A DNA stretch of 64,000 nucleotides from Methylobacterium sp. (GTDB lineage: Bacteria; Pseudomonadota; Alphaproteobacteria; Rhizobiales; Beijerinckiaceae). Positions 4,512 through 60,555 of the stretch are shown here, one piece after another. The position numbers and the translations under genes are program-made. Below the pieces are notes generated by a model. The model made no database searches and had not been told where the DNA came from. It worked only from the letters and a program-made list of their open reading frames with translations. The DNA lies in assembly GCA_020252645.1 (NCBI GenBank), contig JADCCN010000005.1:62001-126000 (forward strand). Direction: 5' to 3'. How positions within the stretch are numbered: position 1 is the stretch's first letter; every line of letters starts with the position of its first letter.

Positions 4512-4618
4512 GAAGCATGCCCCCGCGAAGGCGGGGTGGATTCCGGTTCGCGTGAAGAAAATGCGATAAACAACAGGGATAAATCATCCGATACGCATCG
4601 GATCAGGAAAACGCTCTA
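4512..4618 (-). repeat. Composite family B repeat, supplies degS-like stop codon
   Basis: Read on the minus strand from TA at 4617-4618: TAGAGCGTTTTC, a hairpin ATCCGATGCG/CGCATCGGAT type unit, TTGTTTATCGCATTTTCTTC, and CCGGAATCCACC. The final TAG of the upstream protease gene is the TA plus the first G of this element. Confidence 0.7.
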
Positions 4619-5686
4619 CTGCGCGATATCTTGAACGGTCAGGCCGACCTCGCGCGTGCGCCCGTCGCGGATGACGGAAAGAGTTAAGGCATTGCCGATT
4701 CCAACGCGTTCAAGTTCGGATGTGAGTTCCGATAAAAGGTTCACGGGCCTGCCATTCGCTGCGACAATCACATCCCCCAGCGCGCCATTCGGCCCAAGCC
4801 CCTGCAGGCCTGCCCGCTGCGCAGCACCGCCAGGGCGCACATCGCGGATCACGATGCCGCGAATTCCGGCCCGCGCCGCCATTTCTTCCGGCAACATGGC
4901 AATTCCGATGCCCGGAAGCGGTGCACGACCCGTGCGGATCAGCTCAGCCACGATGCGGTTGACGGTATCGACCGGAATTGCGAAGCCGACACCGGCCGAG
5001 GCGCCCGCCGGCGACAGAATGGCGGTATTGACCCCCACAAGCCGGCCGGCGCTATCCACCAGCGGACCGCCGGAATTGCCCGGATTGATCGCGGCATCGG
5101 TCTGGATGACATTGGCGATCTCGCGACCGGCCTCCGTTGGGAGGCGTCGTCCCAGCGCGCTCACGATGCCCTGGGTCAGCGTCTGCGACAGCCCGAACGG
5201 ATTGCCGATGGCGAAAACAGTCTGGCCCACGAGCAGATCGCCCGAGCTTCCCACCTGGATGGGCCGGAGGCTCGCCAAGGTGGAATCGATCTTCAATACG
5301 GCGAGGTCGGTCCAGGGCGCGCTGCCGATCAGGCGAGCGGGCAAGGTCTGCCCGTCATTCAGCACCACCTGCACGCGCCGCGCATTCTGGATGACATGAT
5401 GGTTGGTGACGATATGGCCGGCCCTGTCCCAGATGAACCCCGAACCGGCGCCACCGCCCTCCTCGGAACCGAAGGGATTTGTGCCACTCATGGTCTGGAT
5501 CGAAACAACCGAAGGGGCGATTGCGGCGAACAAGGCCGTCGTTCGCTTCTCGTCGACATCGAGATCAGCGCGCACCGTCACCGGACGAGGCTCGTCTGCC
5601 CGATACAGAAAATCCCGTAGATAACGCTCGCCGATCAGCATTGCGCAAAGGGCCAGGGCCACGAGAGCCACGCTTCTCCAGAACAA
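4616..5686 (-). CDS. DegS/HtrA-like serine protease with PDZ domain
   Basis: A 356-residue trypsin-like protease anchored in the inner membrane by one N-terminal helix (residues 4-19) and acting in the periplasm. The catalytic triad is visible: His97 in TNHHV, Asp127 in TDLAVLKI and Ser205 in NPGNSGGPL. One PDZ domain follows (about 255-350; GIVIRDVRPGGAAQRAGLQG and GDVIVAANGRPV). One PDZ and a membrane anchor resemble DegS rather than DegP. Its TAG stop is formed by a palindromic element. Monocistronic; transcribed toward the cytochrome gene. Confidence 0.9.
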   Translation of the reverse strand: MFWRSVALVALALCAMLIGERYLRDFLYRADEPRPVTVRADLDVDEKRTTALFAAIAPSVVSIQTMSGTNPFGSEEGGGAGSGFIWDRAGHIVTNHHVIQNARRVQVVLNDGQTLPARLIGSAPWTDLAVLKIDSTLASLRPIQVGSSGDLLVGQTVFAIGNPFGLSQTLTQGIVSALGRRLPTEAGREIANVIQTDAAINPGNSGGPLVDSAGRLVGVNTAILSPAGASAGVGFAIPVDTVNRIVAELIRTGRAPLPGIGIAMLPEEMAARAGIRGIVIRDVRPGGAAQRAGLQGLGPNGALGDVIVAANGRPVNLLSELTSELERVGIGNALTLSVIRDGRTREVGLTVQDIAQ

Positions 5687-5841
5687 CCTGTCGATCCTCC
5701 CTGCACTTAGCCCGGTCTGTGGGCCCGGTGCCGGACACGGCCTGTCTTCGGCCGCCCGGTCCCGTTGCAGGTGAATATCGGCCTCGTGCGGCGAAGCTTC
5801 AAGGCTCGAATGGCCCTCTTTCTGCGCAACCAGGACAGGGG

Positions 5842-6009
5842 CGGGACAATGTGTTCGTCGAGCGCCTGTGGCGAACCATCAAATACGAGGAGGTCTATCT
5901 GCGGGCCTATGGCAGCGTCTTCGAGGCGCGCACCTCGTTGGGACAATACATCGACGGCATTTACAATGCCCATCGTCCCCATTCGAGCCTGGAGCGGACT
6001 CCGATCTGA
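5842..6009 (+). pseudogene. IS3-family transposase OrfB, 3' remnant
   Basis: About 55 codons of the C-terminal end of an IS3-family DDE transposase: RDNVFVERLWRTIKYEEVYL, then EARTSLGQYIDGIYNAHRPH and SSLERTP. The motif RDNVFVERLWRxIKYEEVYL followed by YN..RPHSSL is standard for this family. The rest of the transposase is absent and no inverted repeats are visible, so it is a dead fragment. Confidence 0.85.
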
Positions 6010-6010
6010 C

Positions 6011-6096
6011 TGAATCAGGCCGTCCGCTCACTATTTTTGTTGTTTATCGCATTTTCGTCGACCAACCGGTATCCACTTGGTCGAAAAAATGCTCAA
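6011..6096 (-). repeat. Family B palindromic repeat
   Basis: Contains TTGTTTATCGCATTTTCGTC, CAACCGGTATCCACTTGG and AAAAAATGCTC, matching family B read on the minus strand. It directly follows the IS3 remnant. The remaining 309 bases up to 6405 hold no gene I can support; the promoter of the M16 pair is expected there. Confidence 0.7.
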
Positions 6097-6405
6097 GGCC
6101 GGATGACACCCAACGAGACATACTTCAATGCGCTTCCATCAAGCCCGATAGCGGCCTGAACAAGGCAGGAATCCACTTGGGAACCACCCCGAAACTGTTC
6201 AAACAAACCAAGCCAGCACTGATATCCTGATTGGCGAGCGGAACCCGAATTGGCTTGATCCCAATCATCTTGCCCAAACTGCTTCTATCTGGCAGCCTTG
6301 GCTGCGGCACTTCGCAGCACTTGAAATTCTGAAATGGCAAGTTTGCGATTCGCATTTTTGCAAGATATTTTTGACGAGAGTGTGTTGAGGCGGTATCTCT
6401 CGCCG

Positions 6406-7764
6406 ATGACGAGGTTGCTCCCTCCCCTGCGCTGGCTGCCGTTCGTTTTCTCGAGTGTTGTGCTGCTGGTTGCCACCACCGGCGCTTTCTCGCAAGTGCA
6501 AGTGAGCGAGCGTGTTTTTCTGGTTGAGGACCCCCAGGCCAGCGCGCTCGATTTCCAGATGGTGGTGCGCGCAGGCTGTGCCGATGAGGCCGGGGGGTGC
6601 CGGGGCATCGCGCATTATCTCGAACATCTCGTCCTCGCGGGCCGGGATGGCAAAAGTGAAAACGCGGCGCTCCCCACCTTTCGCGGCATGATGTCGAATG
6701 GTTGGACGACCTCCCGCGCAACGGCCTATACGCACCGCGTGCCGGTTTCCTCAGAGGGGCCCAAGGCGACACTCGAGCGCCTGTTCCGTTTTTATGCCGC
6801 GAGGCTGCGCCCGTTCGAGATCACCCGCGAATTGGAAGCGCGCGAGCGGCAGATCGTGCTTCAGGAATATGACTGGCGATTGGGATCGAGCCCGGCCGCT
6901 CCGCTTCTGCGCAAGATCGATCAGCAGCTTTTCGGCGATCACCCTCTCGGCTCCTGGCCTATCGGGCATAGAAACGAAATTCTGGGGCTGAAGGCGGCGG
7001 ATGCGAAAGCCTTTCACGAGAGCTGGTATCACCTGCCCAATGTCGTCTTTGCCATACGCGGGAACCTGACGCCGGAACTTGTGCGCGAGGTTGCCGAGAA
7101 GGCGCTTGCCGATCTGCCGACATCCGCCGCGCTCCCGCCTCGCCCCTCTGAAAGAGCGGTTGAGGTGGATGCTGCGCGCATGGATATCGTCGTTCAGGAA
7201 GAAAAGGCGACGCAGCGATCGATTGTTTTGCGCAAGCTGTTCCGGATGCCCGAACGCGAGGAAATGGCCGAGTTGGCCATGCTCACTGTGCTCAATCAAA
7301 TGCTCGCGAGCCGACTGCCCGGATCGCTCCATGATTTCGTTGTCGAACGCAGGAAGATCCCGAACGAGAGCCTCTCGGCATCCCTGGCAAGGATTCAACC
7401 GGGGCTGTTTCTGCTCGATCTCCGGGCCGATATTGTCGAAGGCATCGATAGCGCGGTCCTGGCGGGAGCGCTGGAGGATTTCCAGCGAGAGGCTGGCGAT
7501 CTCGCGCCGAGCGCCCGCAACATCGAGCGCATGCGCCGGCGTTCCATCGAAGCCATGAGCGAGCGATCAAAGGCGCCGGAACGTGTTTATCCTGAACTGG
7601 TGCAATGGCTGGCTGCCGGAAGACCGTTTTCAGAATTCGGGCGGATGCCGGTTTATCTGGAACGAGTGACGGATGCCGAGATTGCCGCTGCCTATGCAGC
7701 CTTCTCGGGGCCCGGCCGGCTGGTCAGCGGCGTGCTCATCCCGAAAGAAAGGGCAAGACCATGA
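6406..7764 (+). CDS. M16 zinc metallopeptidase, catalytic subunit (PqqF-like)
   Basis: A 452-residue exported M16B peptidase. The signal peptide is MTRLLPPLRWLPFVFSSVVL then ending AFSQ. The inverted zinc motif HxxEH is His70-Tyr-Leu-Glu73-His74, and Glu154 in ERQIVLQEYD is the third zinc ligand. The last four bases overlap the next gene (ATGA). In Methylorubrum, an M16 pair PqqF (HxxEH) and PqqG (no HxxEH) cuts PqqA to release the cross-linked peptide; the pair here lies 4.4 kb from pqqABCD, so the same role is plausible. However, many proteobacteria carry similar pairs with no PQQ role, and a signal peptide would place this one outside the cytoplasm. An upstream in-frame ATG at 6334 lacks leader character. 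Confidence 0.8.
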   Translation: MTRLLPPLRWLPFVFSSVVLLVATTGAFSQVQVSERVFLVEDPQASALDFQMVVRAGCADEAGGCRGIAHYLEHLVLAGRDGKSENAALPTFRGMMSNGWTTSRATAYTHRVPVSSEGPKATLERLFRFYAARLRPFEITRELEARERQIVLQEYDWRLGSSPAAPLLRKIDQQLFGDHPLGSWPIGHRNEILGLKAADAKAFHESWYHLPNVVFAIRGNLTPELVREVAEKALADLPTSAALPPRPSERAVEVDAARMDIVVQEEKATQRSIVLRKLFRMPEREEMAELAMLTVLNQMLASRLPGSLHDFVVERRKIPNESLSASLARIQPGLFLLDLRADIVEGIDSAVLAGALEDFQREAGDLAPSARNIERMRRRSIEAMSERSKAPERVYPELVQWLAAGRPFSEFGRMPVYLERVTDAEIAAAYAAFSGPGRLVSGVLIPKERARP

Positions 7765-9119
7765 GACTTCTGATTTTTGCCTTTGCCCTCGTCCTCCAGA
7801 CTTTTGTGCCCGCCGATGCTCAGGTTCTCTGGCGCGCCGCCGACCACATGACGCCGGGCGGGCTGGCCTTCCGCTATGTGCAGTTGCCGCGCGGGCAAAC
7901 GCAATCCATCCAGTTCGGCTGGAAAGACGGTTTTGCTGCGCGACAGGCGAACGGCAAGGGCATCGCGGTCTTCGGACCCGCCCTCATCATGCAGGGCCCT
8001 AAAGGGGTCAATCGCGCGGAATTCGTGGAAGACGTCAAGGACACGCAGGGACAGATTTATATCGCTTCAACCCCGGAACACACCATTGGGGGCCTGTTCG
8101 CGCCTGCGGACAAATTCAATGCCGCCCTGCGTCTGATGGCGAAGACGATTTCTGATCCGGCCATGGATTCGGCGAGATTGGAAGACCTGCGGAAAGCCCA
8201 TCTTGCTGCGATCGCGCAGGCTGCGCGGCAGCCCGGCCTGATCGCCAACCGCGTTGGCGCTCATTTCCTTTGGGAAGAAGGTCCGATGCTGGGCTGGACG
8301 AAGGAAGACCCGGCGCATTTCACAACCACATCGCTTGCTCAAATCGAGGAATGGCGGCGATCGGTTCTGACGCGCAAAGGCCTGGTCATCGCTGCTGCGG
8401 GGCCGGCAAGCCCGGAGGAAGCCGCCGCGCAGATCGATGAGTTGTTTGCCGGGCTCCCGCTCACAGGACCGGAACTTTCAGCGCCGGTATTCGCACGTCG
8501 ATCAGCGAGTGGCGCCGTCTTGATTGAGGCCGATGTGCCGCAGACCATGATCCTGATCGGCGGTTGGAGCGCTTTCGAAAAGGGAGCGGAGCAATCGATG
8601 GCCGTGCTCGCGGCCCAGGCGCTTCAGGCTCGCCTGCATCGGGAAGTGCGAGAGAAGCTCGGCGCCACCTATGGAGCGGCGGCGCAGGCCGTTCCAATCA
8701 TCTCACAACCCGTTGTGTTCTCCATGAATTCGATGGTCGCTCACGAACGCGCGATCGAAGCGCTCGATGTGATGCGGAAAGAGCATCAGAAGTTTCTCAC
8801 CGATGGCTTGAGCCAGAACGAGCTGGATTCCGAACGCCAGCGGCTGACCACGGAATTCCAGGAGATCATCCGTCGTCCGCCCGCCGTGGCCACGCTGCTG
8901 CGCGGGGCGCTGCTTGATGGCCAGTCTGCGGATTATGTCGAGACTTTCCCGCAGCGTCTCGCGGCCTTCACCCTTGTCGATGTCAATGCCGTTCTGAAAA
9001 AAGGCCTTGCCGGAAAAGCTGTCAGCACGGTGGTCGTTGCGCCCAAAGGCCCGGGATTTGCAGGTTTTTGCGTCATCCGTGAGGTTGAACAGGTGAACGG
9101 GTGCAGGCTCGCACCCTAG
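7761..9119 (+). CDS. M16 peptidase partner without zinc site (PqqG-like)
   Basis: Also 452 residues, with a signal peptide (MRLLIFAFALVLQTFVPADA). It lacks HxxEH but has the REKLGATYGA segment with the Arg/Tyr pair that binds substrate in non-catalytic M16B subunits. It is translationally coupled to the catalytic subunit by ATGA, as expected of a heterodimer. Its TAG stop codon is made by the TA and first G of a family A palindromic element. Role in PQQ maturation is inferred from pairing and proximity. Confidence 0.8.
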   Translation: MRLLIFAFALVLQTFVPADAQVLWRAADHMTPGGLAFRYVQLPRGQTQSIQFGWKDGFAARQANGKGIAVFGPALIMQGPKGVNRAEFVEDVKDTQGQIYIASTPEHTIGGLFAPADKFNAALRLMAKTISDPAMDSARLEDLRKAHLAAIAQAARQPGLIANRVGAHFLWEEGPMLGWTKEDPAHFTTTSLAQIEEWRRSVLTRKGLVIAAAGPASPEEAAAQIDELFAGLPLTGPELSAPVFARRSASGAVLIEADVPQTMILIGGWSAFEKGAEQSMAVLAAQALQARLHREVREKLGATYGAAAQAVPIISQPVVFSMNSMVAHERAIEALDVMRKEHQKFLTDGLSQNELDSERQRLTTEFQEIIRRPPAVATLLRGALLDGQSADYVETFPQRLAAFTLVDVNAVLKKGLAGKAVSTVVVAPKGPGFAGFCVIREVEQVNGCRLAP

Positions 9120-9220
9120 AGCATGATGTGTTCAGACGGAAGCACATCATGCTCTTATCTTATTATTATCGCATGCTTTTTTGTGAAAAACCGGATTCCA
9201 CTTTTTCACAGCATGCTCTA
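9117..9220 (+). repeat. Family A element, copy 1
   Basis: 104 bp including both flanking TA. Hairpin 1 has arms GAGCATGATGTG and CACATCATGCTC. After an AT-rich linker, hairpin 2 has GTGAAAAACCGGATTCCAC between GCATGC arms. The left TA lies inside the stop codon of the M16 partner gene. Confidence 0.9.
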
Positions 9221-9272
9221 GAGCATAACCTTATCGCAAAAGCGGGTTCCACTTTTGCGGATCATGCTCTGG
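9219..9272 (+). repeat. Family C short palindromic element
   Basis: Shares the TA of copy 1 and continues GAGCATAACC, CGCAAAAGCGGGTTCCAC, TTTTGCGGATCATGCTC. A shorter relative with the same end sequence and a single hairpin. Confidence 0.7.
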
Positions 9273-11789: not shown

Positions 11790-11830
11790 TAGAGCGGCTG
11801 CCGATCTGAGTTAATCAGATCGACCGCTTA
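11790..11830 (+). repeat. 41-bp mini hairpin element flanked by TA
   Basis: TA, GAGCGG, then CGATCTGA-GTTAA-TCAGATCG as a perfect hairpin, then CCGCT and TA. It equals the second hairpin of family B standing alone, and shares its right TA with the next family A copy. Confidence 0.75.
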
Positions 11831-11932
11831 GAGCATGCTGTGAAAAAGTGGAATCCGGTTTTTCACAAAAAAGCATGCGATAACAATAAGAGAAGAGCAT
11901 GATGTGCTTCCGTCTGAACACATCATGCTATA
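11829..11932 (-). repeat. Family A element, copy 2
   Basis: Inverted relative to copy 1: GAGCATGCTGTGAAAAAGTG, CCGGTTTTTCAC, AAGCATGCG, then GAGCATGATGTG and CACATCATGC. The right end is altered (GCTATA instead of GCTCTA), where it meets another repeat. Confidence 0.88.
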
Positions 11933-13170: not shown

Positions 13171-13274
13171 TAGAGCATGCTGTGAAAAAGTGGAATCCGG
13201 TTTTTCACAAAAAAGCATGCGATAATAATAAGAGAAGAGCATGATGTGCTTCCGTCTGAACACATGATGCTCTA
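13171..13274 (-). repeat. Family A element, copy 3
   Basis: TA-flanked 104-bp copy in the same orientation as copy 2, next to a family B element. CACATGATGC replaces CACATCATGC in hairpin 1. Confidence 0.88.
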
Positions 13275-15361: not shown

Positions 15362-16627
15362 ATGCTGACCGGTGCGGCGATGTTGGCGGTCATGCTTGTC
15401 GGTGTGCCGATCGGCATCTGTCTTTGCATCGCCGGCATCGTTTTCGTGGTAGCCTCGGGCAATCCCATTCTGTTCCAGTCCTATCCGCTGCAGATGTTCG
15501 GCGGGGTCGACAGCTATGGGCTGATTGCGATTCCGCTCTTCATCCTGATCGGGGAGATCATGAATGGCGGCGGCATAACGCGGCGCATCGTGGATCTGGC
15601 CATGGCGTTTGTCGGCGCGCTCAAAGGTGGCCTCGCCTATGTCAATATCCTCGCCAACATGTTCGTGGCATCCATCCTTGGCTCGGCCACGGCCCAGGTC
15701 GCGATCATGTCGCAGATCATGGTGCCGGAGATGGAGAAGCAGGGTTATGACAAGGATTTTGCTGCGGGACTGACAGCCTATGGCGGCATGCTGGGGCCGA
15801 TCATTCCGCCGTCCGTGATGTTTGTCGTCTACAGCGTGATGGCGCAGGTTTCGGTTGGCGACATGCTGGTTGCCGGGATCCTGCCCGGGCTTATTCTCAC
15901 GGTCCTGTTCCTCGGCGTCATTGCCCTCATGGGTTTCGTCTACAACTACCCCCGGGCCCGGAAACAGACGTCAAGGGAGAGGGTTCTGACCATCCTGAGG
16001 GCCGCGCCGACCATGCTGATCCCGATCATCATTGTCGGGTCGATCCTGACCGGCCTCGCCAATGCCACGGAATCTGCCGCTGTCGGCGCGGTCGCGGCAA
16101 CCCTCATCGGCAAGTACTGGACGAAGGAACTCAAGTTCTCGCGCCTGCCGGACATGATGCTGCGCGCGGGGATCTACTCGGCGATCGTGCTGTTTCTGGT
16201 GGCCGCTGCAGCGGTTTTCTCGTGGGTGCTGATCTACGGAAAAGTTCCGCAGGCGACGGCAGCATGGGTGCAGACCGTCGCCAAGGATCCGGTCAGCTTC
16301 ATGTTGCTGGCCAACGTCATCCTGCTGGTGATCGGCACGGTCATAGACGGCATTCCGGGTCTGATCATGACCGTGCCGATCCTGTTGCCGATCGCAACCG
16401 AAGTCTACGGGATTGATCCTCGCCACTTTGGCGTGGTCGTCGTCATCAATCTCGTGCTGGGCCTGCTGTCGCCCCCCGTTGGGCTGTGCTTCTTTGTCGC
16501 CGCCGCTGTGACGGGCGCAAAGGCCGGGCGGATGTTCATGGTCACGCTTCCCTTTTTTGGCGTGGCCTGCGTGCTGCTCATCTTGCTGTCTGTTTACCCG
16601 TGGTTGTCGCTCGCCCTGTCGAAATGA
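15362..16627 (+). CDS. dctM: TRAP transporter large permease (DctM)
   Basis: 421 residues, about a dozen membrane helices. Family segments include GVPIGICLCIAG, FGGVDSYGLIAIPLFILIGE, GSATAQVAIMSQIMVP, LTAYGGMLGPIIPPSVMFV and GLLSPPVGLCFFVA. DctM is the ion-coupled permease subunit that receives ligand from the periplasmic DctP protein. Second gene of a dctQ-dctM-dctP operon. Confidence 0.93.
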   Translation: MLTGAAMLAVMLVGVPIGICLCIAGIVFVVASGNPILFQSYPLQMFGGVDSYGLIAIPLFILIGEIMNGGGITRRIVDLAMAFVGALKGGLAYVNILANMFVASILGSATAQVAIMSQIMVPEMEKQGYDKDFAAGLTAYGGMLGPIIPPSVMFVVYSVMAQVSVGDMLVAGILPGLILTVLFLGVIALMGFVYNYPRARKQTSRERVLTILRAAPTMLIPIIIVGSILTGLANATESAAVGAVAATLIGKYWTKELKFSRLPDMMLRAGIYSAIVLFLVAAAAVFSWVLIYGKVPQATAAWVQTVAKDPVSFMLLANVILLVIGTVIDGIPGLIMTVPILLPIATEVYGIDPRHFGVVVVINLVLGLLSPPVGLCFFVAAAVTGAKAGRMFMVTLPFFGVACVLLILLSVYPWLSLALSK

Positions 16628-16655
16628 ACCCAAACTCAAAATCAGGAGGAATATC

Positions 16656-17639
16656 ATGACACTGTCACGCCGCGAGATTCTCGCAATGGGTGCCGCGCTG
16701 CCGCTGGCCGCTCCCTCGCTGGCGCTCGCTCAGGCCAGAGAGCTCCGGCTGGGCATCATTACGCCGGTTGGTCATTCCTGGAACAAGGCCGCCCTTGCAC
16801 TTGGAGAAAAGCTCAAGGCTGCCACCAATGGTCGTCTGACCATGACGGTTTTCCATTCAGGCCAACTTGGAAACGAGTCGGCCATGATGCAGCAACTTCA
16901 ATCGGGCGCGCTCGACATGGGTTTCATCCAGGCCGCCGAGCTTGGCTCGCGCGTGCCGCATCTGGCCGCGATCAACGCGCCCTATCTGGTGCGTTCAACG
17001 CCGGCGGTGGCGAAGCTCGTGCGCCATCCGGAAGTGGTGAAACTCTTCGATGTGCTCCCGAGCGAAACCGGCACGATCGGCCTCGGCTGGGGCATCACCG
17101 GCATGCGCGCGATCTTCTCGTCGAGGGATCTGCAATCGCTCGCGGATATCAAGGGCATGAAGTTGCGCATCAACCCGACCCCCGTCTTTCGCGACTTCTA
17201 CCAGTTGCTTGGCGCCGCCCCGACGCCGATCCCGACGCCGCAGGTTTATGATGCAATGGCCAATGGGCAGGTGGATGGGCTGGAGGCTGATCTCGAGTTT
17301 TCCTGGAACCAGCGGTTCGACAAGGTTTCCAAGGTCATCCTGCAAATGAATGCGGTCTTCATGCCTTTTGCCGCCATCGTTTCCGGCCGCGTCTGGCAGG
17401 GGCTGCCGGCAGCGGACAAGGAAATCATCACCAGAATGGTGAAAGAGACTCTTGATGCCCAGATCGACAGCCTTGCCGGCGATGAGCCGAACCTGATCGA
17501 GAACTTCAGGAAGGCGCCGATTCCGATCCGTCAGGTGGCGGTTGCGGATACCGAGGCTGTCATTGCCGAATTCGACAAGATATGGATGCCGAAAGCTCCG
17601 GTGATCGCCAACCTGCGCAAGATCGGAGCCTCAATCTAG
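16656..17639 (+). CDS. dctP: TRAP transporter substrate-binding protein (DctP)
   Basis: 327 residues with a signal peptide (MTLSRREILAMGAALPLAAP, ending ALAQA) and a DctP solute-binding fold (LRLGIITPVGHSWNKAALAL, YDAMANGQVDGLEADL). The Arg of MKLRINPTP is the usual carboxylate-binding position, so an organic acid ligand is likely. AGGAGG at 16644-16649 fixes the start. Its TAG stop is built from the TA and G of family A copy 4. The ligand is unknown. Confidence 0.92.
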   Translation: MTLSRREILAMGAALPLAAPSLALAQARELRLGIITPVGHSWNKAALALGEKLKAATNGRLTMTVFHSGQLGNESAMMQQLQSGALDMGFIQAAELGSRVPHLAAINAPYLVRSTPAVAKLVRHPEVVKLFDVLPSETGTIGLGWGITGMRAIFSSRDLQSLADIKGMKLRINPTPVFRDFYQLLGAAPTPIPTPQVYDAMANGQVDGLEADLEFSWNQRFDKVSKVILQMNAVFMPFAAIVSGRVWQGLPAADKEIITRMVKETLDAQIDSLAGDEPNLIENFRKAPIPIRQVAVADTEAVIAEFDKIWMPKAPVIANLRKIGASI

Positions 17640-17740
17640 AGCATGCTGTGAAAAAGTGGAATCCGGTTTTTCACAAAAAAGCATGCGATTATAATAAGAG
17701 AAGAGCATGATGTGCTTCCGACTGAACACATCATGCTCTA
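17637..17740 (-). repeat. Family A element, copy 4
   Basis: TA-flanked copy whose left TA is part of the dctP stop codon. One base change in hairpin 1 (CGACTGAAC for CGTCTGAAC). Confidence 0.9.
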
Positions 17741-19816: not shown

Positions 19817-19890
19817 TGGCTGGGGGACCTGGATTCGAACCAAGACTAACGGAGTCAGAGTCCGCTGTTCTACCGTTAAACTATCCCCCA
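19817..19890 (-). tRNA. tRNA-Gln (CUG)
   Basis: A 74-nt cloverleaf with encoded CCA. Acceptor TGGGGGA pairs with TCCCCCA; the anticodon stem GCGGA/TCCGT holds loop CTCTGAC with anticodon CTG; the T-arm contains GGTTCGAATCC. Its 3' end faces left, toward the accessory region with IS remnants. Confidence 0.96.
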
Positions 19891-27871: not shown

Positions 27872-27947
27872 GCCCGGGTAGCTCAGTTGGTAGAGCATGC
27901 GACTGAAAATCGCAGTGTCGCTGGTTCGATTCCGGCCCCGGGCACCA
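27872..27947 (+). tRNA. tRNA-Phe (GAA)
   Basis: A 76-nt cloverleaf with encoded CCA: acceptor GCCCGGG/CCCGGGC, D-arm AGCTCAGTTGGTAGAGC, anticodon loop CTGAAAA with GAA, T-arm GGTTCGATTCC. Nothing further is seen between it and 28126. Confidence 0.97.
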
Positions 27948-31971: not shown

Positions 31972-32076
31972 GAAGCATTTTTTCGAAGAAGTGGATACCG
32001 GTTCTTCGAAACAAAATACGGTAAATCAAGAGCTTAGAGCGGTCAACCTCATTCATTCAGATCGAATTTCGCTCTA
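31972..32076 (+). repeat. Family B element
   Basis: Same layout as the copy at 30648, with TTCTTCGAA pairing to TTCGAAGAA, an internal TTAGAGCGG unit, and a right TA shared with family A copy 5. Confidence 0.82.
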
Positions 32077-32178
32077 GAGCATGATGTGTTCAGACGGACG
32101 CACATCATGCTCTTCTCTTATTATTATCGCATGCTTTTTTGTGAAAAACCGGATTCCACTTTTTCACAGCATGCTCTA
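32075..32178 (+). repeat. Family A element, copy 5
   Basis: TA-flanked, same orientation as copy 1; TTCTCTTATTATTATC replaces TTATCTTATTATTATC in the linker. Lies between a family B copy and the end of yacG. Confidence 0.9.
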
Positions 32179-40104: not shown

Positions 40105-40105
40105 C

Positions 40106-41086
40106 ATGCGTTCTCTTGAAGTTGAGATCGAGCGTTTCCCCATCGCGGGAACCTTCACCATCTCGCGCGGCTCGCGCAATGAAGCGGTGGTCGTCACGGC
40201 CACCCTGCGCGAGGATGGGCATGTCGGGCGCGGCGAATGCGTGCCCTATGCGCGCTATGGCGAGACCGTGGAGGGCGTGGCCGAGACAATCCGCGGAATG
40301 GCGGACAAGGTCGCCGCGGGCCTCGACCGGCAGGCGCTGCGCCGGATGCTGCCGGGTGGTGCGCCCCGAAACGCGCTCGATTGCGCGCTGATCGATCTCG
40401 AAGCGAGGATGAGGGGCAAGCCGGCCCATCTGCTGCTCGGCTGTTCGCCGCCGGGGCGGCATGTCACCTGCTACACCCTGAGCCTCGGCACTCCGGAGAG
40501 CATGGAGGAAGCGGCGCGCGCCGCGAGCAAACGCACGCTCCTCAAGGTGAAGCTCGGCGGCGAAGGCGATGTCGCGCGCATCGCGGCCGTGCGGCGGGGT
40601 GCTCCGCAATCCCGCCTTGTCGTGGATGCGAACGAGGCGTGGCGCGCCGAAACGCTCCGCGCCAATCTCGAGGCCTGCGCGGCGGCAGGCGTCGAACTCA
40701 TCGAGCAACCCCTGCCCGCCGGCCAGGATGAGGCGCTTTCCGGCATTATCAGCCCCATCCCGCTCTGCGCGGATGAATCGATGCATGATTCCACGAGCCT
40801 CGCGCATCTGCCGCCGTGGTATTCCGCCATCAACATCAAGCTCGACAAGACCGGCGGCCTGACCGATGCGCTGGAATTGCGCGCGGCGGCTCTGGCGAAG
40901 GGTCTTAAGATCATGGTGGGCTGCATGGTGGGCACATCGCTCGCCATGGCGCCCGCGCTCCTCCTGGCGGAAGGCGCGAGCTTCGTCGATCTCGATGGTC
41001 CGCTTCTGCTCGCGAAGGATCGCGACCCGGCGCTGTCCTACCCCGGGAGCTTCGTGGCACCCGCACCGCCGGGTCTGTGGGGCTAG
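40106..41086 (+). CDS. dgcA: N-acetyl-D-glutamate racemase DgcA (enolase superfamily)
   Basis: 326 residues of the dipeptide-epimerase/muconate-lactonising group. Catalytic bases Lys147/Lys149 in LLKVKLGG and Lys245 or Lys248 in INIKLDKTGG, metal ligands Asp174 (VDANEAWR), Glu200 (LIEQPLP) and Asp223 (ADESMHD). It would racemise N-acetyl-D-Glu made by DgcN. Its TAG stop is made by the TA and G of a family C element. Confidence 0.83.
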   Translation: MRSLEVEIERFPIAGTFTISRGSRNEAVVVTATLREDGHVGRGECVPYARYGETVEGVAETIRGMADKVAAGLDRQALRRMLPGGAPRNALDCALIDLEARMRGKPAHLLLGCSPPGRHVTCYTLSLGTPESMEEAARAASKRTLLKVKLGGEGDVARIAAVRRGAPQSRLVVDANEAWRAETLRANLEACAAAGVELIEQPLPAGQDEALSGIISPIPLCADESMHDSTSLAHLPPWYSAINIKLDKTGGLTDALELRAAALAKGLKIMVGCMVGTSLAMAPALLLAEGASFVDLDGPLLLAKDRDPALSYPGSFVAPAPPGLWG

Positions 41087-41187
41087 AGCATGTTGCGCAA
41101 AAGTGGATACCGGTCTTGCGTAACAACATGCAACAAAACAATAAGATAGAGCTCGGTTTTGATTCCATCAAAACGAGACGTGCTCTA
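41084..41187 (+). repeat. Family C element
   Basis: TAGAGCATGTTGCGCAAAAG, TGGATACCGGTCTTGCGTAA, CAACATGC as hairpin 1; then TAGAGC and a second hairpin (GGTTTTGATTCCATCAAAAC) ending GTGCTCTA. The left TA is in the dgcA stop codon; the right TA is shared with family A copy 6. Confidence 0.82.
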
Positions 41188-41289
41188 GAGCATGATGTGT
41201 TCAGACGGAAGCACATCATGCTCTTATCTTATTATTATCGCATGCTTTTTTGTGAAAAACCGGATTCCACTTTTTTACAGCATGCTCTA
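41186..41289 (+). repeat. Family A element, copy 6
   Basis: TA-flanked, same orientation as copy 1, with one extra T in place of C in hairpin 2 (TTTTTTAC for TTTTTCAC). Sandwiched between family C and family B elements that share its TA ends. Confidence 0.9.
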
Positions 41290-41398
41290 GAGCATTTTTT
41301 CGAAGAAGTGGATACCGGTTCTTCCAAAGAAAATGCGGTCAACAACAAGAATAGAGAGCGAAATTCGATCTCATTCATTCAGATCGAGTTTCGCTCTA
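41288..41398 (+). repeat. Family B element, encodes permease C-terminus
   Basis: AGAGCATTTTTTCGAAGAAG, TGGATACCGGTTCTTCCAAA, then AGAGCGAAATTCGATC and a hairpin ending TCGCTCTA. On the minus strand the permease gene runs into it. Confidence 0.82.
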
Positions 41399-42239
41399 TC
41401 GACCCCTTCCCCGCCCATTCTCCCAGGCCCATCACCAGGGTGCAGAGCGCCGCGAGCACGAGGCCGAGCGTCGCGGTGACGGCAAAATCCGAGCCGGCAT
41501 CCGAGACCATCGTGAAGAGCTGCAGGGGCAGGATGTTCACCTGCGTGCCCACGAGCGCCAGCGCCGTGCCATAGGCGCCGATCGCCACCGCCGCGACCAA
41601 AGCGAAGGCGGAGATCATCGGCGCTTTCAGTTGCGGCAGCAGGATATCGCGCAAGGTGCGAAGACGGCTGGCGCCAAGGCTCTCGGCGGCGGCGAGTTGC
41701 GCGGTGTCGAAATTCACGAGCACCGGCGTCAGCATCATCACCACGCGCGGGACGAGGTAATAGGCATAAACGAAGGCCAGGCCATAGGGCGAATACACGG
41801 CCTGCGAAAAGGCCACGGGGTCCACGCCGAAAATCCGCTCGAGCAGCAAAGTCACGAAACCGGCGCGGCCAAAGGCGAGAATGAATCCATAGGCGACGAT
41901 CAGCCCGGAAAAAGTGAGCGGCAGCGCGATCAGGAACTGCCAGGCGAGCCTGGGCCGCTCCGCCATCCGCGCCAATCGCAGGGCCACCGCGAGGCCGATG
42001 GCAAGCGAGACCAATGCCGCCAGCACGCCGAGAACCAGCGAGTTCACAAGGCCGGTCCAGAAGGGGCGCGAGGCAAGAAGCGCGCGGATGCCATGCGTGC
42101 CGCCCGTCAGTGCTTCGGCCACTACGAAGCCGAGGGGCACGAAGAAGAAGAGCGCGAAAAGCACGAGCCCGGGCGATGCGAGCATCGCCCGGGTGCCCGC
42201 GCCGGTGCGGAAGGAAGGCCCGGCGCGCAGGATTGCCAT
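41379..42239 (-). CDS. ABC transporter permease (spermidine/iron type)
   Basis: 286 residues, six predicted membrane helices and an EAA loop (AAAESLGASRLRTLRDILLP). The N-terminus SPGLVLFALFFFVPLGFVVA is typical of PotB/FbpB-type permeases. The last seven residues (SIERNSI) and the TGA stop come from a family B element, so the natural C-terminus has been replaced. Last gene of the operon; its start overlaps the binding-protein stop by one base. Confidence 0.87.
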   Translation of the reverse strand: MAILRAGPSFRTGAGTRAMLASPGLVLFALFFFVPLGFVVAEALTGGTHGIRALLASRPFWTGLVNSLVLGVLAALVSLAIGLAVALRLARMAERPRLAWQFLIALPLTFSGLIVAYGFILAFGRAGFVTLLLERIFGVDPVAFSQAVYSPYGLAFVYAYYLVPRVVMMLTPVLVNFDTAQLAAAESLGASRLRTLRDILLPQLKAPMISAFALVAAVAIGAYGTALALVGTQVNILPLQLFTMVSDAGSDFAVTATLGLVLAALCTLVMGLGEWAGKGSIERNSI

Positions 42240-46859: not shown

Positions 46860-46937
46860 CATTCCGGTGCCGGCCCCAAAGTTTCCGGGATCCTGCAAAA
46901 GGCCGGATGGACAGACGCAATCATCCATGTTTTACAA

Positions 46938-47130
46938 AAGGTGCTTTCGGTGCCTCTCGTCAGAGAGAGGTGAAACGGGAACGCCGTAAAGGGTGTCGAA
47001 CCCCCAATCGGCGGCTGCCCCCGCAACTGTAGGCGGCGAGCCTTCTTCGCAACACCACTGGGCCCGAAAGGTCCGGGAAGGGCGAACAGGCGCTTGAGCC
47101 GCAAGCCAGGAGACCGGCCGGAAGCCTGTG
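46938..47130 (+). ncRNA. Cobalamin riboswitch
   Basis: Contains GCCCCCGCAACTGTAGGCGG, a CACTGGG-to-CGGGAAGG hairpin region and the B12 box AGCCAGGAGACCGGCC at 47104-47119, all in order 40 bases before btuB. On binding adenosylcobalamin it would repress the btu operon. The 5' boundary is approximate. Confidence 0.94.
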
Positions 47131-47170
47131 CAACACGAACTCCTTGGCGGCGGGCCGGGGCAGGCGGATC

Positions 47171-51049: not shown

Positions 51050-51466
51050 ATGAAAGCGCGCGCGAAACTGATCGAGGGCATGGCCTTTCTGGGAGAGGCC
51101 GGCAGCGGCCATTCGATCGTGATGGATGGCTCGCCCGAATCGGGCGGCCGCAATGCCGGCTTCCGGCCCATGGAATTGCTGCTCGTGGGCCTTGCCGGCT
51201 GCACCGCCTTCGACGTGGTTCTCATCCTGCGCCGGGGGCGGGAGGATGTCGCAGATTGCATCGTGGAAGTCTCGGCCGAGCGGGCGCCGGAAGACCCCAA
51301 GGTCTTCACGAAGCTCCATCTCGATTACCGCGTGAAGGGCAGGAACCTCGACGAGGCCAAGGTGAAAAGGGCAGTGGAACTCTCGAAGGAGAAATACTGC
51401 TCGGCCTCGATCATGCTCGGCAAGACCGCCGAGATGACCTTTGCCTACACGGTCGAGGCTTTCTGA
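51050..51466 (+). CDS. OsmC-family peroxiredoxin-like protein
   Basis: 138 residues. The two redox cysteines are Cys51 (GLAGCTAFDVV) and Cys117 (EKYCSASIML), in family positions. OsmC proteins reduce organic hydroperoxides. Its stop overlaps the start of the broken sulfurtransferase gene. Confidence 0.9.
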   Translation: MKARAKLIEGMAFLGEAGSGHSIVMDGSPESGGRNAGFRPMELLLVGLAGCTAFDVVLILRRGREDVADCIVEVSAERAPEDPKVFTKLHLDYRVKGRNLDEAKVKRAVELSKEKYCSASIMLGKTAEMTFAYTVEAF

Positions 51467-51606
51467 TGGCCGGGCTGATCTCTCACGAGGCGCTGAAGAC
51501 CCGGCTCGGCGAGGCCGGCCTCGTGCCGGTCGATCTCCGCCTCGCGGCGGATGGTGGGCGTGAGAGCTACCTCGCCGGCCATGTGCCGAGGGCGATCTGT
51601 TCCGGT
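51466..51606 (+). pseudogene. Truncated rhodanese-type sulfurtransferase
   Basis: The first 45 or so codons of a sulfurtransferase (MAGLISHEALKTRLGEAGLV, PVDLRLAADGGRESYLAGHV, PRAI) are intact. At 51607 a family C element begins and the frame continues through it as junk to a stop at 51687. DxRxxxxGxxxYLAGHxPxA is the N-terminal rhodanese pattern. It overlaps osmC by one base, so it was once coupled to it. Confidence 0.8.
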
Positions 51607-51671
51607 CAGAGCATGTTCTCGCAAAAGTGGATACCGGTTTTGCGTAACAACATGCGACCAGAAAAAGACAG
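51607..51671 (+). repeat. Family C element interrupting the sulfurtransferase gene
   Basis: AGAGCATGTTCTCGCAAAAG, TGGATACCGGTTTTGCGTAA, CAACATGCG. It is followed directly by a family B copy. Confidence 0.8.
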
Positions 51672-51776
51672 AGCATTTTCCGAATAAGTGGATACCGGTT
51701 CTTCGAAAGAAAATGCGATCAAGAAAAAGAGAGATAATGCATCCGAGCTGATCCGGTCAGATCGAAAAAATGCTCC
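51670..51776 (+). repeat. Family B element
   Basis: AGAGCATTTTCCGAATAAGT, GGATACCGGTTCTTCGAAAG, AAAATGCGATCAAG, ending in AAAAAATGCTC. Lies between the broken gene and the lysR 3' end. Confidence 0.78.
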
Positions 51777-51793
51777 ACCCTTTCGAGGCAGCC

Positions 51794-52681
51794 TCAGATG
51801 AAGGCGATTTCGGTCGCGCGGTCGAGAAGCTCGCGCAAAAGCGGATTGGGAAAGCGGCGCTGGATATGCACGCCGTAGAAGGCCTCGCGGAGGCCGGGCA
51901 GCTTCTCGATCTCGATCAATGCGCGGCTTGCGAGTTCGTCCCGCACGACAATCGGCGGCAGCACGGCGAGCCCCGCGCCCTCGCGCACGAGCAGGCGCAT
52001 CATCGCCATGTCATCCACCTCCGCCGCGATCTGCGGGAAAACGCCGAGGCTGTCCGCCAGCGCCTCGAACCCGAGCCGGACGCCGCTGGAGCGCCCCGGC
52101 AAAACGAGGGGATGGCGCGAAAGCCTCTCGCGTAACGGGAGCCCGGGTTCGGCGAAAACGGAGGCACCGATGAGGCTCACCGGCTGCTCATCGAGCCGGT
52201 GCACCACGAAGGATGTGAGGCGATCCCCCGCCGGGGGCTGGTTGGTCAGCACGAGATCGAGTTGCAGCCCCTCGAGCCCCAGAATGAGCTCCTCCGCGCC
52301 GGCCGAGCGCAGGATGACCTCGACATCCGCACGGCCCAGCAGCGGCTTCAGGAATTGCAGCTGGAAATTGCGGGAGAGCGTGGCCATCGCGCCGACGCGC
52401 AGCACGCGCCGCGCATGGCTGGCCTGCCGCAAGGTTTCCACCAGTTCGCGCCCGGTGGAGAAGATGGAATCGGCATGATCCAGCGCGATCCGCCCCGCTT
52501 CCGTGAGGTGCAAGGCCCTGCCCCGACGCTCGAATAATTGCTGCCCAAGCCGCTGTTCCAGCTGGCGGATCTGGGAGGAGAGCGCGGATTGCGCCACGTT
52601 CAGCCGCTCGGCCGCGCGGGTGAGGTTCCCCTCATGCGCGACGACCTGGAAATAGCGGAGATGGTGATAATTGAGATCCAT
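51794..52681 (-). CDS. LysR-family regulator of the dab locus
   Basis: 295 residues. Helix-turn-helix MDLNYHHLRYFQVVAHEGNL, AQSALSSQIRQLEQRLGQQL; ligand domain with LLGRADVEVILRSAGAEELI. It resembles the NhaR/CbbR-like group. Divergent from dabB-dabA with an inverted repeat overlapping its own start codon, so it probably controls itself and the dab genes. Confidence 0.88.
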   Translation of the reverse strand: MDLNYHHLRYFQVVAHEGNLTRAAERLNVAQSALSSQIRQLEQRLGQQLFERRGRALHLTEAGRIALDHADSIFSTGRELVETLRQASHARRVLRVGAMATLSRNFQLQFLKPLLGRADVEVILRSAGAEELILGLEGLQLDLVLTNQPPAGDRLTSFVVHRLDEQPVSLIGASVFAEPGLPLRERLSRHPLVLPGRSSGVRLGFEALADSLGVFPQIAAEVDDMAMMRLLVREGAGLAVLPPIVVRDELASRALIEIEKLPGLREAFYGVHIQRRFPNPLLRELLDRATEIAFI

Positions 52682-56846: not shown

Positions 56847-56862
56847 GGAACGAGCGCCGCAT

Positions 56863-56966
56863 TAGAGCATGATGTGTTCAGACGGAAGCACATCATGCTC
56901 TTATCTTATTATTATCGCATGCTTTTTTGTGAAAAACCGGATTCCACTTTTTCTCAGCATGCTCTA
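56863..56966 (+). repeat. Family A element, copy 7
   Basis: TA-flanked, between convergent dabA and the rhodanese gene. Its right TA is in the rhodanese stop codon (minus strand). Confidence 0.9.
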
Positions 56967-57371
56967 GCCGGCGGCCTCTCCGCTCGCGAGGGAAAATCCC
57001 TCATCCAGCCAGCCGGTGATGCCCCCGGCCATGATCTTCACGGGCCGCCCCAGCTTCGCGAGCCGCAAGGCCCCACGCGCCGCGCCGTTGCAATGCGGGC
57101 CGGCGCAATAGGTGACGAACAGCGTGCCTTCGGGCCATTGTTCCATCTTCGACGCGGTGATCTTGCCATGCGGCAGGTTGATCGCGCCCGGAACATGCCC
57201 CTTCGCGAAGAGCGCGGGCCCGCGCACATCGAGCAGCACGAAATCGACCTCGCCCGAGGCGAAGGCCTCATGCACATCCCAGCAATCGGTCTCGAAGGTG
57301 AATTCTGCCGAAAAATGCGCTTCGGCCTCGGCGGATGGCGCGGCGGGAATGGCGGCGACGGCGGATGGCAT
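56964..57371 (-). CDS. Rhodanese-like sulfurtransferase
   Basis: 135 residues. VDFVLLDVRGPALFAKGHVP, PGAINLPHGKI and the active-site loop YCAGPHCNGAARGA with Cys89. Rhodaneses carry sulfane sulfur. GGAG just before the ATG at 57371 sets the start. It lies 73 bases after an ABC binding protein on the same strand and ends with a TAG made by element copy 7. Confidence 0.88.
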   Translation of the reverse strand: MPSAVAAIPAAPSAEAEAHFSAEFTFETDCWDVHEAFASGEVDFVLLDVRGPALFAKGHVPGAINLPHGKITASKMEQWPEGTLFVTYCAGPHCNGAARGALRLAKLGRPVKIMAGGITGWLDEGFSLASGEAAG

Positions 57372-57444
57372 GGCGTGCTCCTTCTCGGGGGCCACCTTGC
57401 AGAGAGCGGCCGGAAGGTCAAGCCTTCCGGCCACGGCTTTTCCC

Positions 57445-58482: not shown

Positions 58483-58516
58483 GGTTTCCTCCGGTTTTGT
58501 TGTTGTTTCTGAATTC

Positions 58517-58620
58517 TAGAGCATGCTGTGTTCAGCCGGAAGCACATCATGCTCTTATCTTATTATTATCGCATGCTTTTTTGTGAAAAACCGGATTCCA
58601 CTTTTTCACAGCATGCTCTA
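58517..58620 (+). repeat. Family A element, copy 8
   Basis: TA-flanked, inside the operon between the permease and the binding protein. Its right TA forms the permease stop codon. One hairpin-1 arm has lost pairing (CATGCTGTG against CACATCATG). Confidence 0.9.
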
Positions 58621-59409
58621 GACGGTGCGCGTCTCGCCCGGCTTCCAGACGAGCAGCGGTTTTTCGATCACAGTCACGACGGCGTCGATCAGCATCACGA
58701 ACATCATGAGGATCACCATGCCCGCGAACACCCCCGTGACATCGAACACCCCTTCCGCCTGGTGGATGAGGTAGCCGAGACCGGCCGCCGAGCCGAGATA
58801 CTCACCGACCACCGCCCCCACCACCGCGAAGCCCACGGAAGTGTGCAGCGAGGAGAAGACCCAGGCAAGCGCCGCAGGCCAATAGACATGCCGCAGCAAT
58901 TGCCGCTCGTTCATTCCGAGCATGCGGGCATTGGCGAGCACCACCTGCGGCACCTCCCGCACGCCCTGATAGACGTTGAAGAACACGATGAAGAAGACCA
59001 GCGTGACCCCCAGCCACACCTTCGACCAGATGCCGAGGCCGAACCACAGCGCGAAAATCGGCGCGAGCACCACGCGCGGCAGCGCGTTCATCATCTTCAC
59101 ATAGGGGTCGAACACGGCGGCCACGAGCGCCTTGCGCGCAAACCAGAAGCCGATGACGATGCCGAGGCTGGCACCGATCACGAAGGCGAGGATCGTCTCG
59201 ACCAGCGTGATCCAGAGATGCTTGTAGACCGAGCCATCCGCGAACATCCGGATGACGCGGGTGAAGACGTCGATCGGCGTCGAGAAGAAGAACCTCATCG
59301 TCTTCACATCGGAAATCACAGGGTAATTCGTGACGATGTGCCAGAAGACGATCGCGCCGATGGCGACGAGCGCCTGCAGAAACAGCAATTTGAGGCGGGA
59401 AATCGGCAT
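58618..59409 (-). CDS. ABC transporter permease (SsuC/TauC type)
   Basis: 263 residues, about six helices. EAA-type loop NARMLGMNERQLLRHVYWPA, ILAFVIGASLGIVIGFW and GLGYLIHQAEGVFDVTGVFA fit SsuC/TauC. Its start overlaps the ATPase stop. The TAG stop is made by element copy 8. Confidence 0.9.
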   Translation of the reverse strand: MPISRLKLLFLQALVAIGAIVFWHIVTNYPVISDVKTMRFFFSTPIDVFTRVIRMFADGSVYKHLWITLVETILAFVIGASLGIVIGFWFARKALVAAVFDPYVKMMNALPRVVLAPIFALWFGLGIWSKVWLGVTLVFFIVFFNVYQGVREVPQVVLANARMLGMNERQLLRHVYWPAALAWVFSSLHTSVGFAVVGAVVGEYLGSAAGLGYLIHQAEGVFDVTGVFAGMVILMMFVMLIDAVVTVIEKPLLVWKPGETRTV

Positions 59410-60215
59410 CAGGCGGCGCCCTTTCCGGTCAGGCCATAGGTCTTGCGCACCTCCTCGCGCAGACACGACCAGATCTCCGCATGGAGCTTGTGGAAGGCGG
59501 GTTCCGAGCGCACTTCCGCGATATCGCGCGGGCGGGGCAGATTCACCTCGAACTCGCCGATGAAGCGCGAGTTCGGCCCCGCCGACATCACCACCACGCG
59601 ATCCGAAAGCGCGATGGCTTCATCGAGATCATGCGTGACGAACATCACCGCCTTGCGATCCTGCTGCCAGAGATCGAGCAGCAATTCGCTCATGATGAGG
59701 CGGGTCTGCGCGTCGAGCGGGCCGAAGGGCTCATCCATCAGCAGGATCTTCGGCTCACGGATCAGCACCTGCGCGAGGGCCACGCGCTTCTTCTGCCCGC
59801 CCGAGAGCTGGTGCGGGTAACGATCGCCAAAGGTGGCGAGGCCCACTTTCGCGAGCATCGCCTTTGTGCGCGCCACGGCTTCGGATCGCGACACTCCCAT
59901 CACCTCAAGGCCGATCGACACGTTATCCTGCGCCGTCTTCCAGGGCATCAGCGCATCCTGCTGGAAGAGGTAGCCGGCCTTGGCGTTCAGCCCCGAGAGT
60001 TTCTGCCCGAAAATGTCGCATTGCCCGCTCGAAGGCGGCATCAGCCCGGCGGCGATGTTCAGAAGCGTCGATTTCCCGCAGCCCGTCGGCCCCAGCAGCG
60101 CGACGAATTCGCCGTCGCGCACCGCAAGATCAACCGGCTGCACCGCCTCGTAGCGCCCGCCCCCGGCCAGACCATAGGCCACCGAGACACCCGCGAGGTG
60201 CACGGCCATGTTCAT
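59409..60215 (-). CDS. ABC transporter ATP-binding protein (SsuB/TauB type)
   Basis: 268 residues. Walker A LGPTGCGKSTLLNIAAGL, Q-loop YLFQQDALMPWKT, signature LSGGQKKRVALAQVL, Walker B ILLMDEPFGPLDAQTR, VTHDLDEAIALSDRV. First gene of the ATPase-permease-binding protein-rhodanese operon. Confidence 0.93.
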   Translation of the reverse strand: MNMAVHLAGVSVAYGLAGGGRYEAVQPVDLAVRDGEFVALLGPTGCGKSTLLNIAAGLMPPSSGQCDIFGQKLSGLNAKAGYLFQQDALMPWKTAQDNVSIGLEVMGVSRSEAVARTKAMLAKVGLATFGDRYPHQLSGGQKKRVALAQVLIREPKILLMDEPFGPLDAQTRLIMSELLLDLWQQDRKAVMFVTHDLDEAIALSDRVVVMSAGPNSRFIGEFEVNLPRPRDIAEVRSEPAFHKLHAEIWSCLREEVRKTYGLTGKGAA

Positions 60216-60451
60216 GTGTCCTCCCGCCGCCCGCGATTATGGTGCCGCGGATCGATCCTCGGGTTATCAAGTTAGGTCAACGAGGCTGACCGGCTCAAGC
60301 CGAAAACGATGCGCCGTCCGAAAAGAGCCATGCCGCCTTCCATCCGGCACGTCGGGCGATCCGCCCCGCCGGCACGGGCGCACAGCCATCCGATCGCGAG
60401 ACGGCGCGGCGGGAGCCCAGGAAGGAAAGCCGGGCGCATGAAACAGGGCCT
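60216..60451. other. Intergenic, promoter region of the ABC operon
   Basis: No gene seen. The ABC operon promoter is expected near the right of 60215; no clear motif found. Confidence 0.45.
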
Positions 60452-60555
60452 TAGAGCATGATGTGTTCAGACGGAAGCACATCATGCTCCTATCTTATTG
60501 TTATCGACTGCTTTTTTGCAAAAAACCGGATTCCACTTTTTCACAGCATGCTCTA
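60452..60555 (+). repeat. Family A element, copy 9
   Basis: TA-flanked, the most diverged full copy (GCTCCTATCTTATTGTTATC, GACTGCTTTTTTGCAAAAAA). Its right TA is part of the gntR stop codon. Confidence 0.88.

Follow-up and report, generated by a model that had tools for sequence, protein, structure and literature searches.

Rhizobium-specific intergenic mosaic elements (RIME) are two-palindrome intergenic repeats of ~100 bp that were reportedly described by Osteras et al. in 1995, and we know of no involvement of stop codons in their placement. The elements of the Methylobacterium sp. window studied here (the whole 64-kb stretch of DNA that was analysed) resemble these rhizobial repeats: both are two-palindrome intergenic repeats of ~100 bp in Hyphomicrobiales, a likeness that refers to the description of RIME and not to a RIME reference sequence. 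For one element type, M3, matching repeats occurred in 35 plasmid records (27 from Rhizobium), with partial cover in those listed; the Rhizobium plasmid repeats share the order hairpin, A-rich linker, hairpin. REP/BIME repeats with RAYT are likewise high-copy intergenic palindromes, but membership in this group was rejected, as Y1_Tnp (PF01797) had no match in the source genome (G000), the relative G007 or the named MAG G010.

In Brucella, IS711 reportedly duplicates the TA of YTAR and prefers Bru-RS palindromes (PMC2266754). The elements studied here also use YTAR and cluster at each other's ends, as IS711 prefers Bru-RS; however, IS711 is autonomous, whereas no searched transposase family was present in the source genome, and Bru-RS are likened by description only. 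According to the BOX section of PMC3049150, 36 pneumococcal CDSs end with a BOX-encoded stop, with no strong evidence for truncation. BOX is a precedent for stops supplied by a repeat, though from an unrelated host and likened by description, not by sequence or target; no rule for the rebuilding of a stop is given in that section. Both the YTAR mechanism and the extent to which usable stops are occupied appear to be new.

The first-pass annotation had assigned seven TAG stops of the window to inserted elements. All seven (4616, 9117, 17637, 41084, 56964, 58618 and 60553) indeed consist of the element's TA and its first G, and on the gene strand TAG is followed by the element's AGC in every case. 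Recounting with our own gene caller, which was used throughout instead of a standard annotation, changed their share from 7 of 11 TAG stops to 7 of 14 TAG-ending gene calls (one of the 14, 51445–51582, is doubtful), whereas TGA was confirmed as the most frequent stop (37/55 gene calls). Pfam agreed with the names of six of the seven genes; in the PqqG-like ORF an inactive M16 domain was the sole domain found. An Rfam search of the window gave three hits (a riboswitch and two tRNAs), none touching the following elements.

4450–4618, minus strand: older M2-like element or elements with uncertain outer limits; the first TAG terminates the DegS-like gene (4616–5686, minus strand)
9117–9220, plus strand: M1 copy; TAG terminates the PqqG-like gene (7605–9119, plus strand); a further element adjoins at 9219
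11829–11932, minus strand: M1 copy, not at a stop
13171–13274, minus strand: M1 copy, not at a stop
17637–17740, minus strand: M1 copy; TAG is the stop of dctP (16557–17639, plus strand)
32075–32178, plus strand: M1 copy, not at a stop; abuts an M2-type unit, the array being absent from G007
41084–41187, plus strand: M3 copy; TAG is the stop of dgcA (40013–41086, plus strand)
41186–41289, plus strand: M1 copy, unit 2 of an M3-M1-M2 array, joined via a shared TA
41288–41398, plus strand: M2 copy, unit 3 of this array; a convergent gene call (41379–42239) terminates inside it
56863–56966, plus strand: M1 copy; the far TAG terminates the rhodanese gene (56964–57434, minus strand); excision gives TAA
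58517–58620, plus strand: M1 copy; the far TAG terminates the ABC permease gene (58618–59466, minus strand); excision gives TAG
60452–60555, plus strand: M1 copy; the far TAG terminates gntR (60553–61347, minus strand); excision gives TAA

The main type, M1, is 104 bp long and has terminal inverted repeats (GAGCATG...CATGCTC), both ends starting with G. Its core gave 75 + 75 matches in the source genome; a sample of 101 hits less 12 partial ones left 89 near-full copies, which were flanked by TA on both sides in 76 cases and by AT on both sides in one. The elements pile up at one another's ends. The alignment of the source genome to G007 breaks at elements, and the dgcA, permease and dctP stops are element-free in G007. 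The TA target-site duplication, the short multi-copy units with terminal inverted repeats and the sites that are empty in relatives are the features of MITEs. Judged jointly with the explanation given below, the elements are most probably non-autonomous, MITE-like two-hairpin repeats of ~104 bp that insert at YTAR and duplicate TA. The duplication of TA points to a mover of the DDE type. The search for an autonomous partner was negative, since none of five transposase families was present in the source genome and the transposase loci inspected in relatives (part of the five families) had no GAGC...GCTC ends around the transposase; the transposase would act in trans or may since have been lost.

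The insertions entered pre-existing TAA or TAG stops. In silico excision restored TAR at all 20 ends whose far flank is unique and whose TA is intact (TAA 9, TAG 11). Four of 42 excised ends were not TAR (TGA, GAA, CAG and TAT); all had element DNA beyond, and three had a mutated far TA. In G007, 13 of 15 orthologues ended at the same codon, or 15 of 17 with DegS and dctP, the other two ending elsewhere; for 44 of 60 stop ends, the portion of G007 examined gave no hit. The G007 orthologue of the DegS-like gene has an identical TAG followed by a similar element start. In G007, dctP stops at the same codon, a TAG, and the dgcA stop is a TAG as well, both without an element, whereas the ABC permease, whose insertion is common to the source genome and G010, has TGA at the same codon and no element. 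The gntR stop of G007 is occupied by another element, and its rhodanese counterpart is 12 codons longer, extending into a different element. Five of the 13 same-codon orthologues (DegS and dctP apart) ended with TGA, indicating that stops also turn over. The earlier claim that insertion into a TAA or TAG stop restores TAG was thus borne out: as the element starts with G, both are rebuilt as TAG, which accounts for a shift from TAA to TAG. The same excisions and orthologues largely refute a truncation at Tyr codons, in which insertion at any in-frame TA would create TAG and the ORF would only seem to end there. The one excision to TAT and the shorter lengths of L103 and the window rhodanese relative to their G007 counterparts fit such a truncation, but with TAR in 20 of 20 clean excisions and the same end codon in 15 of 17 orthologues it is highly improbable.

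Overlap with stops was not confined to the window: it was seen for 40 of the 89 near-full M1 copies in the genome sample. Within 384 kb of contiguous source-genome sequence, which comprises 337 gene calls and 44 element arrays, 18 of the arrays coincide with stops, 21 in all. In these 384 kb, AGC follows 23 of 52 TAG stops versus 7 of 285 TGA or TAA stops (Fisher p = 1.5e-15). Of 94 non-adjacent M1 ends facing a gene 3' end, 41 begin right at the stop codon and just one lies upstream of it, the next nearest being 6 and 12 bases downstream; 5 of 178 M1 ends had no gene in view and were excluded. A separate count, 3381 of 3573, was taken without non-syntenic or missing flanks. Two copies between convergent genes supply the stops of both.

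The earlier reading of the target as TA was correct in that TA is used, but the target is YTAR and not any TA. YTAR was found in 15 of 16 non-stop, non-adjacent insertions, and C or T preceded TA in all nine related plasmid repeats examined. An in-frame TAR is by definition a stop, so that stops are the coding-like targets in which an insertion heals itself, and the YTAR target alone makes them a large share of the good sites. For 43 non-adjacent M1 insertions (89 less 13 not flanked by TA on both sides and 33 adjoining a further element), target-weighted expectations were 13.9 at stops and 3.3, 15.1 and 10.7 in non-coding convergent, tandem and divergent regions, versus 27, 3, 12 and 1 observed. 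None lay in coding sequence, although this carries the largest target weight. The comparison with chance gave an overall excess at stops of about twofold over the weighted expectation (p = 5e-5), for which a depletion of divergent and tandem sites must be invoked.

We very probably deal with YTAR-targeting, MITE-like elements that heal themselves at stops and survive there neutrally. An element would insert at YTAR and duplicate TA, and a TAA or TAG stop would be the one in-frame target where this is harmless: TA plus the terminal G would rebuild TAG in either orientation, with the old TAR displaced beyond the element's other end. Insertions in genes and in divergent (promoter) regions would be purged by selection, presumably the filter, and those at stops would be neutral and retained. 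The notion of neutral survivors had been put forward in the first-pass annotation and fits the target-weighted test; the YTAR target was missing there. It suggests a rule for TA-inserting elements in a compact genome, by which a YTAR target and a first G (or A) let stops be occupied at no cost.

Stop-seeking is not needed for the pattern. A mover that seeks stops or surroundings beyond YTAR, as in evolved safe-harbour targeting, would fit the twofold excess remaining after weighting and the 21 occupied versus 11 free YTAR stops in the 384 kb (YTAR not being required of the occupied ones), compared with 14 of 123 intergenic YTAR sites. In unweighted tests on the source genome, 21 of 32 stops were occupied versus 3 of 20 convergent sites (p = 0.0005), but stops were not significantly preferred over harmless convergent sites after weighting (16:3, p = 0.31), and G007 had no excess at stops (13/54 versus 5/23, p = 1); these occupancy tests omit arrays overlapping gene ends, in gene calls or at an edge (12/44 in the source genome, 5/32 in G007). 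For 5 of 13 same-codon orthologues, the corresponding stop in G007 also bears an element, a different one; this is more than expected from the occupancy of all TAR stops (14/155, p = 0.004) but in line with that of YTAR stops (13/54, p = 0.33). Stop-seeking would also fit the one stop at which M1 lies in opposite orientations in the source genome and G010 (L084/L142). Extra stop-targeting is thus suggested by the unweighted tests and not by the weighted convergent comparison, and we regard it as quite unlikely. Unlikely, too, is an evolved self-healing harbour, in which the YTAR target and the G at each terminus would make the element land in stops and rebuild them in either orientation, including cases where a single TA serves two convergent genes. 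Elements would in the end supply the majority of the genome's usable stops (~6% of gene calls), and the genes would rely on them for termination of their reading frames.

It had also been proposed that the hairpins act as terminators or stabilisers, which would keep elements at stops because they halt transcription or shield the 3' end of the mRNA. The M1 stems directly behind the stop are very stable (z of −7.1 and −8.3 in the two orientations), and for pneumococcal SPRITE repeats a possible co-option as terminators was suggested by the authors (PMC3049150). However, no canonical U-run follows the stems in either orientation, and the more terminator-like orientation, with a U-rich stretch behind the first hairpin, is the minority at stops (14 versus 28, p = 0.044), so that the bias runs, weakly, opposite to selection for terminators. 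M1 is also present at stops in tandem contexts where the next gene is less than 60 bases away (5/27). The proposal is not supported, and we give it little credence. Hairpins located precisely at a stop may be neutral insertions that have survived and not terminators, which calls for caution in their interpretation.

At other 3'-facing ends the excess was opposite to that at stops, a count that is not independent because every element contributes both of its ends.

Pairs of relatives with and without an element at the same stop represent a natural experiment on the importance of 3' hairpins. In G007, 11 of 32 arrays are at stops, and AGC follows 14 of 80 TAG versus 21 of 589 other stops (p = 1.2e-5). 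In G010, 10 of 12 M1 copies are at stops, leaving out one 76% hit in L143, the duplicates L001 and L048, and the Roseomonas locus L148. Of 39 TAG stops sampled from five other genomes, one showed the pattern, indicating a lineage-specific trait. In the Rhizobium plasmid stretches, AGC follows 2 of 44 TAG stops, one of which belongs to a clear element.

The TA-flanked, two-hairpin repeats of the window comprise three types, M1 (the main type, 104 bp with both TAs included), M2 (111 bp) and M3 (104 bp), whose units are often concatenated into arrays with a single TA between neighbours. Inspection of the seven genes said in the first-pass annotation to take their stop from an element (DegS-like, PqqG-like, dctP, dgcA, rhodanese, ABC permease and gntR) verified the assignment, as each TAG is followed by AGC of the element; the accompanying share of 7/11 TAG stops has to be corrected to 7/14, since 14 TAG stops were called in the window using our own hexamer-model gene caller in place of standard annotation. 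In 384 kb of contiguous sequence (window plus C12:1-320000 of the same genome, G000), AGC followed 23 of 52 TAG stops versus 7 of 285 TGA or TAA stops (p = 1.5e-15). The corresponding values in a same-genus relative (G007) were 14/80 and 21/589 (p = 1.2e-5), and samples from five further genomes gave 1 in 39 TAG stops.

The M1 core had 75 forward and 75 reverse matches (≤3 mismatches) in G000 (3.05 Mb), 100 of them with listed positions, and 89 near-full copies from the neighbourhoods of the M1 matches listed were analysed. Insertion had brought 40 of the 89 into contact with a stop, including two that lie between convergent genes and contact a stop with each end. A gene was in view of 173 of the 178 M1 ends; 39 ends adjoined another element, which left 134, and 94 of these pointed at a gene's 3' end. 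Among these 94, 41 began exactly on the stop and one upstream of it, the nearest others lying 6 and 12 bases downstream. Considering all three types, 60 stop ends were found in G000 and 4 in G007; in contiguous sequence, arrays touched a stop in 18/44 (G000) and 11/32 (G007) cases, and element-contacted stops made up 21 of 337 gene calls in G000.

The proposal that the elements entered pre-existing TAA or TAG stops was borne out by in-silico excision, which restored TAA (9) or TAG (11) at 20 of 20 clean ends (unique far flank, intact TA). The other 22 ends, with element DNA beyond, gave TAG (13), TAA (5) and TAT (1) where the TA was intact, and TGA, GAA and CAG where the far TA was mutated. 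Comparison with G007 orthologues was possible for 15 of the 60 stop ends, and the stop codon position was identical in 13 (7 TAG, 5 TGA, 1 TAA), the exceptions being the gene at locus L103, longer by 15 codons in G007, and the rhodanese gene, longer there by 12. DegS and dctP provided two further orthologues with the same stop codon position.

State of the window's seven genes in G007
dgcA: TAG, without element
dctP: TAG, without element
gntR: TAG with a different element
DegS-like gene: TAG with an element of similar start
ABC permease: TGA at the stop
rhodanese: gene extends into another element
PqqG-like gene: the G007 sequence retrieved for this gene gave no match

The target motif YTAR was present at 15 of 16 insertions that were neither at stops nor adjacent to another element. 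In 780 kb of G007, it accounted for 117/6,676 coding, 271/1,278 non-coding and 59/152 stop-codon TA sites. Expected insertion numbers were calculated with a weighting matrix built from 51 half-sites of non-stop insertions, taking G007 as the empty genome.

Expected and observed placement of 43 non-adjacent insertions
stop-convergent: expected 8.4, observed 16
stop-tandem: expected 5.5, observed 11
non-coding convergent: expected 3.3, observed 3
non-coding tandem: expected 15.1, observed 12
non-coding divergent: expected 10.7, observed 1

Stops in total were thus hit 27 times versus 13.9 expected (p = 5e-5, target-weighted); the target weight of coding sequence was 4108 versus 642 for stops, yet no insertion was coding. 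Insertion at non-coding convergent sites should be as harmless as at stops. Because the ratio of 16:3 between stop-convergent and non-coding convergent insertions is compatible with an expected share of 0.715 (p = 0.31), target preference combined with the loss of insertions in genes and promoter regions is enough to explain the use of stops. Some room is left for true stop-targeting beyond this preference. Unweighted, G000 had 21 occupied versus 11 free YTAR stops, with 3/20 convergent (p = 0.0005 versus stops) and 14/123 intergenic sites occupied, whereas in G007 stops (13/54) and convergent sites (5/23) were occupied alike (p = 1), these tests excluding 12/44 (G000) and 5/32 (G007) arrays of other placement.

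Five of the 13 same-codon G007 orthologues had, at that stop, the start of an element other than M1 (TAGAGC or TAGAGT), which exceeds the G007 occupancy of all TAR stops (14/155, p = 0.004) but not that of YTAR stops (13/54, p = 0.33). M1 itself was nearly absent from G007 (five weak matches), which aligned to window positions 19.8–64 kb with 91–95% identity, interrupted at elements. It was present in a second relative, G010, whose contig C181 agrees in length (4757 bp) and M1 positions with JADCCH010000261.1, part of a MAG that carries the label Methylobacterium sp.; there, 10 of 12 M1 copies contacted a stop. One stop carried M1 in opposite orientations in G000 (L084, around 2458) and G010 (L142, 215), reflecting either independent insertion or an in-place flip. 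M1 copies common to both genomes (58517-58620 plus five others; loci L141, L143-L146, L149) were identical at 604/617 bases and their largely coding flanks at 3381/3573; constraint or gene conversion may account for the lower divergence of the copies.

A role of the hairpins as terminators or stabilisers, as previously suggested, was not supported: despite their high stability, the stems are not followed by a canonical U-run. The M1 orientation with a U-rich stretch behind the first hairpin was the minority at stops (14 versus 28, p = 0.044). The TA-to-TA distance of M1 was 102 bp in 58 of 76 full matches, so that the old stop is usually kept in frame, and in the commoner orientation, as read from the sequence, TGA follows three sense codons after the TAG. 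These features are no more than suggestive.

G000 had no match to the transposase family profiles PF13340, PF13358, PF01609, PF13586 or PF01797. M3-like repeats occurred in 35 plasmid records, mostly from Rhizobium (27), and C or T preceded the TA in 9/9 related plasmid repeats (Rhizobium, Bradyrhizobium, Roseinatronobacter, Sphingobium). In R. leguminosarum, plasmid pRLG204 has a LysR gene (WP_003595796.1) whose stop is the TAG of the element, the only annotated-stop case among nine fetched repeats (one record without annotation). The elements look like the RIME kind. Like them, IS711 is reported to target YTAR and to duplicate the TA (PMC2266754). Among the precedents found for stops contributed by an element, pneumococcal BOX comes closest, with 36 CDSs ending on a repeat-supplied stop (PMC3049150). 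No other report was recognised from titles and abstract starts among the matches listed in the open literature, and the term 'stop codon' is absent from the text of a 2024 review of prokaryotic MITEs.

One M1 copy (L107, 2460) had AT, not TA, on either side. The ends of G000 contigs C1, C3 and C24 carry full or cut M1 copies, so that the assembly is probably interrupted by the repeat. The M1 core (38 bp) was also found, without mismatch, on a contig from a Roseomonas-labelled MAG (L148), which belongs to a different taxonomic order; this represents either transfer or a mis-binned contig. At the element array 51615-51730 (region 51520-51860), G007 has approximately 2 kb extra and the upstream gene of the window is truncated there compared with its G007 counterpart, a pattern that a deletion ending at the elements would leave. 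Further features of the window were:

46931-47136, cobalamin riboswitch (127.9 bits)
27872-27944, plus strand, tRNA gene
19820-19890, minus strand, tRNA gene
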